This document shows, piece by piece, positions 18,224 through 23,719 of a DNA stretch of 64,000 bases. Position 1 is the stretch's first letter. Every line of letters starts with the position of its first letter. The notes below the pieces were generated by a model, which saw nothing but the letters and a program-made list of their open reading frames with translations, searched no databases and was not told the origin of the DNA. Source of the stretch: Thermoproteota archaeon (GTDB taxonomy: Archaea > Korarchaeota > Korarchaeia > Korarchaeales > Korarchaeaceae); the NCBI GenBank assembly GCA_027491785.1, contig JAOZGJ010000101.1, positions 101,007-165,006 on the forward strand, written 5' to 3'. The translations under genes and the position numbers were made by a program.

Positions 18224-18246
18224 GCTCACCTCCTCCCCTTTCCTCT

Positions 18247-18313
18247 AGAGGACCATGATGAGCATTCGGCAAGAGGGCAGATATGGCCCAGAAGAGGGTC
18301 AGCTGAGTCCTCT
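18247..18313 (+). ncRNA. Candidate box C/D sRNA (kink-turn RNA)
   Basis: Stem AGAGGAC (18247-18253) / GTCCTCT (18307-18313), 3-nt bulge CAU, box C ATGATGA (18255-18261), box D CTGA (18303-18306), 41 nt between boxes; intergenic. Confidence 0.6.
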
Positions 18314-18327
18314 GGGAGGATGATTTA

Positions 18328-22653: not shown

Positions 22654-23376
22654 TCACAACAGAGAAATTATTTGGTAAATGGATGGGGCTATTACAACAA
22701 GCCATGTTATTAAGGCCGCAATTAGTGATTTACCTCTGTTCATCTCAAATCCCTGCCTACATGCGGAATATATTATGCCTAGAGTCCATATAGAAATCAA
22801 AAGGCTCAGTGTTGATTGCTGCAATACTATCTCAATAGGTAATCCTACTCCTCCAAAGGAAGCCTGTCGGGGAGATATACTTATCGTCCAAGTAATAGGG
22901 GGCATGATCAACCCTAGTCCGAAAAGGAACAGTCCATAGATAATAGAGGGTACATTACTTAAGCCTACTATCATGAGAGAAGAGGAATATTTGCCAGAAC
23001 TTCCAAGTAGCTTGACTAGAATAAAGAGCACGAGAGCTATTACAGCCTGAAGGATCAGACCTGAAATGAAAGATTCTAAAAACAATATAATTGGATTTTT
23101 AATGAATAATTCCATCATTCCCTTTACCACAGTGGCGGTTTCCTCAGGTATATTCCCTCCCACACTTATTTCTATATTTAAATTTCTTAACATTGAATAG
23201 TTTCCTATTGCTACGAAAGCAGAGCTAATAAGGAGAATTATCAGCCAATACTTTAACTTTGGACTTATAGATATCCCCTTAAGCACTTCGGAGCTGAATC
23301 TTAAGGGCTGCAGGATGTAATCCTTGAGTGAATAGGGCATTTCCTCTGATGGTTCCTCCTCTATTTCAAATCCCAT
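22654..23376 (-). CDS. Yip1-like multi-TM membrane protein
   Basis: Five hydrophobic segments, LVKLLGSSGKYSSSLMIVGLSNVPSIIYGLF; start trimmed to the ATG at 23376 preceded by GAGGTGA. Confidence 0.65.
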   Translation of the reverse strand: MGFEIEEEPSEEMPYSLKDYILQPLRFSSEVLKGISISPKLKYWLIILLISSAFVAIGNYSMLRNLNIEISVGGNIPEETATVVKGMMELFIKNPIILFLESFISGLILQAVIALVLFILVKLLGSSGKYSSSLMIVGLSNVPSIIYGLFLFGLGLIMPPITWTISISPRQASFGGVGLPIEIVLQQSTLSLLISIWTLGIIYSACRQGFEMNRGKSLIAALITWLVVIAPSIYQIISLL

Positions 23377-23447
23377 GAGAGTCACCTCATTATTACTTAT
23401 ATGATCGTACCATAAAGTTAATTTTACCATATAAGGAGATAGGTAGT

Positions 23448-23524
23448 GGTCCACGCAATGAGGAGAGCGAACATCAACGAATCCTCATGGAGATGAAGTT
23501 CCCAGCTCACACCGAGCGTGGACC
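23448..23524 (+). ncRNA. Candidate box C/D sRNA (kink-turn RNA), predicted guide to 23S rRNA
   Basis: Perfect 9-bp stem GGTCCACGC/GCGTGGACC, AAT bulge, GAGG (box C variant ATGAGGA) opposite CCGA (box D variant); CCCAGCTCACA directly upstream of CCGA complements UGUGAGCUGGG. Confidence 0.7.
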
Positions 23525-23609: not shown

Positions 23610-23719
23610 GCCGGGGTAGCTCAGCCTGGTTAGAGCACCGGACTCATAAGCGAGTCAGGGGGCTCACGGTGCTCTGCTGGGAAATCCGGGGGTCCCGGGT
23701 TCAAATCCCGGCCCCGGCA
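23610..23719 (+). tRNA. tRNA-Met(CAT), elongator-type, with a 35-nt intron at 37/38 (23649-23683)
   Basis: Acceptor GCCGGGG/CCCCGGC, D arm, T arm CCGGGTTCAAATCCCGG, anticodon stem CCGGA/TCCGG, spliced loop CTCATAA; perfect bulge-helix-bulge (UAA, CUCA:UGGG, AAA). Confidence 0.92.

Follow-up and report, generated by a model that had tools for sequence, protein, structure and literature searches.

Positions 23448-23524 (+ strand) of the window, the 64,000-nt stretch of DNA analysed here, most probably (probability roughly 0.93) encode an archaeal double-guide box C/D sRNA for methylation of A2577 and of G2553 (or U2552) in 23S rRNA, as judged by comparison of related genomes. The sRNA gene, its structure, its guide-target pairing and the co-evolution of guides and targets are supported in silico. 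A box C/D sRNA had been proposed in the preliminary description of this DNA, and the comparative evidence from stem, boxes and guides upholds that identity; the second guide had been missed. The features of the locus are as follows.

23418..23436, +: AT-rich, weakly TATA-box-like stretch, ~12-30 nt upstream of the stem, seen by eye
23448-23524, +: box C/D sRNA (predicted), intergenic, 77 nt
23448..23456, +: 5' arm of the 9-bp terminal stem (GGTCCACGC), from sequence reading and covariation
23457-23459, +: bulge AAU, followed by GAGG (23460-23463), from sequence reading
23458..23464, +: C box AUGAGGA, of which the AUGA part is kept in relatives
23467..23475, +: D' guide GCGAACATC against 23S GATGTTCGC (A-loop, helix 92), matched in relatives and with a compensating change in genus g5
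23477..23480, +: ACGA, the likely D' box, 12 nt downstream of box C, supported with moderate confidence by the alignment and by a canonical CCGA in this position in g5
23490..23496, +: GAGATGA, the likely C' box, GATG being invariant in 15 alignment rows (moderate confidence)
23501..23510, +: D guide CCCAGCTCAC against 23S GTGAGCTGGG, the D+5 nucleotide (23507, U) facing A2577 in E. coli numbering
23512..23515, +: D box CCGA, which is CTGA in relatives with U at 3b and also in G002
23516..23524, +: 3' arm of the terminal stem (GCGTGGACC), from sequence reading and covariation
23610..23719, +: downstream intron-containing tRNA-Met (CAU) gene (Rfam RF00005, 60.7 bits; anticodon from the sequence)

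Locus and predicted fold

Direct reading of the locus gives the order GGTCCACGC-AAT-GAGG...CCGA-GCGTGGACC, exactly the 9-bp stem, AAT bulge and GAGG facing CCGA that had been described. The 77-nt fold was calculated at -31.7 kcal/mol (z = -4.7), a value equalled by none of 200 shuffles. The sRNA overlaps the reverse ORF 22654-23454 by 7 nt only, at the GTG start end of that ORF, which also has a later ATG. The locus had been called unannotated, and no Rfam family reached its gathering score in the region. In a permissive scan (4227 families) all seven of the matches listed were C/D-box families, the best being archaeal CD-box sR17 (RF01144; 17.8 bits, E 0.021); membership of that family was rejected on the gathering score of 36 and on its differing guides, the likeness being one of archaeal CD-box type. 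The sRNA escaped a strict C/D search of the window; with relaxed settings it was picked up, along with one other good candidate. Single guide matches from the relaxed scan were not taken as evidence, because control runs with reversed or complemented rRNA also gave 4-7 hits. A fibrillarin gene (PF01269, E 2e-87) and L7Ae-family genes (PF01248, two hits) were found to be encoded in the family search.

The gene order from sRNA to tRNA-Met is common to all g1 loci examined, with a distance of 53-124 nt between box D and the tRNA gene. The homologues in genera g2, g4 and g5 are located away from tRNA-Met, and the sRNA is therefore not a tRNA leader. The tRNA-Met gene itself was detected by Rfam and missed by ARAGORN. 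AT-rich elements of the same weak kind, again picked out by eye, lie upstream of the g1, g2 and g4 homologues.

Conservation and stem covariation

In a DNA search of 41 genomes, most members of the genus and one genome outside it yielded homologues; the matches L016-L020 were set aside as chance. A covariance model was built from 15 homologues and then run on 29 genomes of the phylum, 21 of which contained the sRNA family, including members of g2, g4, g5 and family f3. The homologues span five genera and two families of the phylum. No homologue was found with the covariance model in G007, G017, G019 or G021, which are mostly incomplete bins.

The letters of the terminal stem are rewritten between groups (GGYCCACGC, GGGGGC and CGGCGGCGC) with pairing kept, and six of the nine pairs show changes on both sides. 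The stem covariation score is 0.473 compared with 0.187 in shuffles, none of 500 shuffles reaching it. The GA of box C and the GA of box D are invariant in the relatives, as in a terminal k-turn. Covariation in related genomes had been named as a check on the sRNA in the preliminary description, and the stem and the boxes, which change together, both bear it out. An apical UCC/GGA helix, an alternative to the k-loop, is kept in the main clade, reads CCC/GGG in G018 and is absent elsewhere.

Guides and their rRNA targets

Target pairing was assessed on the rRNA of relatives because no 23S gene was found in the window's genome bin by family search. Eight close relatives with full or partial 23S were used (G001, G008-G010, G012-G014 and G020). 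The D guide CCCAGCUCAC pairs over 10 bp with GUGAGCUGGG in relatives' rRNA, and the 10-bp pairing of CCCAGCTCAC with GTGAGCTGGG is present in all eight. A match of 11 nt had been claimed; it is real in the relatives' 23S at a length of 10 bp, the A adjoining box D facing C2573. The assignment of this guide to the peptidyl-transferase segment of 23S was borne out, since GTGAGCTGGG was found in the relatives and the guide follows its changes, and A2577 was likewise recovered as the D+5 target when counted between U2552 and C2606, the anchors named in PMC4644070. Another exact GTGAGCTGGG in the window's own genome (C78:4898) reads as protein-coding sequence and was rejected as rRNA. A limited literature search returned nothing relevant on A2577 methylation in archaea.

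The second guide, GCGAACAUC, forms 9 bp and targets the A-loop (U2552/G2553); in the same eight relatives the upstream guide CGAACATC pairs over 8-9 bp with GATGTTCG(C) of the A-loop. If the D' box is ACGA, D'+5 is G2553, one nucleotide from U2552, and in g5, with its clear D' box CCGA and a D' spacing displaced by one nucleotide, D'+5 is U2552. The internal boxes are degenerate in the window's clade (ACGA/GAGAUGA) and clear in g5 (CCGA/GUGAGGU with a 3-nt loop), and it is this degeneracy that limits the D' box to moderate confidence. The pair CTCA/AGATGA had been suggested for D'/C'. However, CTCA varies freely among the relatives (CCCA, CTTA, CTAA and others), which speaks against it as D', whereas ACGA and GATG are kept, making ACGA the more likely D' box. 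The C'-D spacing is 15 nt compared with the usual 10-12 nt.

The two target sites are 24 nt apart in 23S, with the A-loop upstream of the A2577 segment. Among 4000 shuffled guide pairs none matched both sites within 100 nt, whereas a 10-bp match of the D guide by itself turned up in 181; thus the single D match on which the preliminary description relied is only moderately improbable by chance, and the pair of matches far more so. In g5 the 23S (G022 and G019) reads GATGCTCG and GTGAGTTGGG, both targets being substituted, and the guides of G022, CGAGCATC and CCCAACTCAC, restore both duplexes; G023 has the same guides. G025, from another family, combines unchanged targets with matching guides. 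In G018 a changed A-loop letter faces an unchanged guide, so that the duplex with the A-loop contains a single A.C mismatch. The lengths of 10 bp and 9 bp against relatives' 23S, with co-variation in g5, are in line with the ~10-12 nt looked for in a guide adjoining D or D'. In G011 the 23S contig (L082, C48) carries g5-like letters and the sRNA is g1-like. This contig, g1-like at first and then closer to g5, is probably chimaeric or recombinant, as its downstream half is 94% and its upstream half 89% identical to G022. The 23S match of G010 (L039, C1:1328189-1331736) spans 3.5 kb compared with ~3.0 kb, which suggests an intron or insertion.

Three other explanations were weighed against these data. 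We consider it unlikely that the D guide alone is active, with D'/C' a dead half and the A-loop match conserved for some other reason. The non-canonical ACGA (ACAA in G005) and the mismatched G018 sRNA, which lacks a clear D' box, would fit such an arrangement, but the D' guide is invariant in most of g1, changes with the A-loop in g5 (CGAGCATC against GATGCTCG) and is the same in G025. There is also a slim chance that the C/D sRNP scaffold serves mainly as an rRNA chaperone, keeping helix 92 away from the 2574-2583 strand during assembly, with weak or absent methylation at one or both sites. Chaperoning by C/D sRNAs has been proposed for double guides (PMC4644070), and the degenerate D' box and unusual C'-D spacing are consistent with it; against this, box D and the GA/AG pairs are invariant and D+5 at A2577 is unmismatched wherever sRNA and 23S are both known, the doubtful G011 excepted. 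A non-RNA hairpin in a promoter or leader, with a chance likeness to C/D boxes and 23S, could be imagined from the position near the start of the reverse ORF and upstream of the tRNA gene, but is very improbable given the compensatory stem changes, the co-variation of the boxes and of guides with targets at two sites, and the g2, g4 and g5 homologues lying away from that gene.

Exchange of the k-turn pair 3b.3n

The window's boxes, AUGAGGA and CCGA, each differ by one letter from the consensus RUGAUGA/CUGA and represent a paired change. U.U strongly predominates at 3b.3n in the k-turns of archaeal box C/D RNAs (PMC5689011). In the relatives this pair is U.U, G.U or G-C: in the alignment a C box with U at 3b (GAUGAU) is accompanied by a CUGA D box and one with G (AUGAGG) by CCGA. 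The canonical GAUGAU C box is present in G005 and G010-G013. G002 combines AUGAGG with CUGA, giving a G.U pair that is a plausible intermediate between U.U and G-C. U.U is also found in g5 and in G025, a more distant genome. In the LSU tree G018, with G-C, is sister to G020, with U.U, and the main g1 clade also has G-C, which requires at least two independent switches between U.U and G-C. By this comparison, 3b.3n in the k-turn of the window's clade has changed from U.U to G-C, the form of U4 snRNA. The replacement of U.U by G-C with both boxes deviating together, already noted from the window alone, therefore recurs in independent lineages. In g5 (L074 = G023, L076 = G022) the GAGG/CCGA G-C form is found in the internal D'/C' and not in C/D.

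The G-C switch is not a lineage-wide rule, because another C/D-type sRNA in the window keeps canonical boxes.

18245-18317, +: another conserved sRNA of C/D type, whose boxes are the canonical AUGAUGA/CUGA and whose stem covaries

It has a 10-nt match (ATTCGGCAAG) to 23S and homologues in 15 of the 16 genus genomes searched; the G003 copy has the C box AUGAGGA with CUGA.

A G-C pair at 3b.3n, as is typical of U4 snRNA, blocks ion-induced folding of the k-turn, although L7Ae can still fold it (PMC4382518). The exchange might conceivably be functional, making folding and RNP assembly strictly L7Ae-dependent (since a U4-type k-turn cannot fold in metal ions alone) or altering Nop5 recruitment, with selection repeatedly toggling the pair; we regard this as doubtful.

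Comparison with known RNAs

Like other archaeal box C/D sRNAs (PMC4644070, PMC7994747), the window sRNA has a stem, a C/D k-turn, a probable internal D'/C' and two guides to rRNA sites less than 100 nt apart; it differs from them in its AUGAGGA/CCGA boxes in place of RUGAUGA/CUGA, its long 9-bp stem and its 15-nt C'-D spacing. The window's lineage was not found in the surveys of PMC4644070 and PMC7994747 as far as these were searched, and the main text of PMC4644070 makes no mention of the A-loop and A2577 as a target pair. The peptidyl-transferase region is a methylation hotspot, and methylation of U2552 is predicted in five archaea (PMC4644070). Nanoarchaeum equitans sR10 is likewise a double guide, with its D' guide directed at the A-loop nucleotide U2826 (E. 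coli U2552), but its D guide is directed at U2880 (E. coli C2606) and not at A2577 (PMC4644070). An sRNA in a Methanopyri-labelled MAG (L096, JAADCQ010000010.1, 4188-4212 and upstream) shares with the window sRNA the D guide, ATCCCAGCTCACA ahead of CCGA, and the predicted target; it differs in its D' guide and its short stem, and the two sRNAs possibly converged on one rRNA site.

The k-turn in the 5' stem-loop of U4 snRNA likewise has G-C at 3b.3n. There is a strong bias towards G-C or G-U in U4 k-turns, which do not fold in metal ions but do so on the L7Ae/15.5K protein (PMC4382518). No U4 match for the sRNA was obtained in the permissive Rfam scan, and only the k-turn resembles U4. Its letters AAUGAGG/CCGA presumably agree with those of human U4. 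The U4-like k-turn in a methylation guide with two box pairs is convergent, and no homology is claimed.

Proposed function and significance

In archaeal C/D sRNAs L7Ae binds both k-turns, followed by Nop5 and fibrillarin, and the guide selects the target nucleotide that pairs with its fifth position upstream of D or D' (PMC4644070). In this class it is common for the two targets of a double guide to lie close together (262 of 489; PMC4644070). Once transcribed, the double-guide sRNA would form a k-turn from its terminal stem and boxes C/D that binds L7Ae, which would then recruit Nop5 and fibrillarin. The D guide would pair with the helix-93-side segment GUGAGCUGGG and direct 2'-O-methylation of A2577, and the D' guide would pair with the A-loop, 24 nt upstream, for methylation of G2553 or U2552. 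By the rule of five nucleotides upstream of D and D', both modifications would lie beside the A-site tRNA end. If the two guides pair with their neighbouring strands at the same time, this may also help this part of the peptidyl-transferase centre to fold.

The sRNA adds to a well-known class; what sets it apart from routine members is co-evolution with rRNA at two sites and an exchange of the k-turn pair that has happened more than once. In an archaeal lineage that has been little studied, it provides a well-supported candidate methylation guide for two places in the peptidyl-transferase centre, the A-loop and A2577, and at both of them guide and rRNA target can be seen to co-evolve. The family is also a natural series of U.U, G.U and G-C at the k-turn position that biochemists found decisive for folding, and the importance of the conserved U.U pair in box C/D RNAs is therefore testable with these natural 3b.3n variants.
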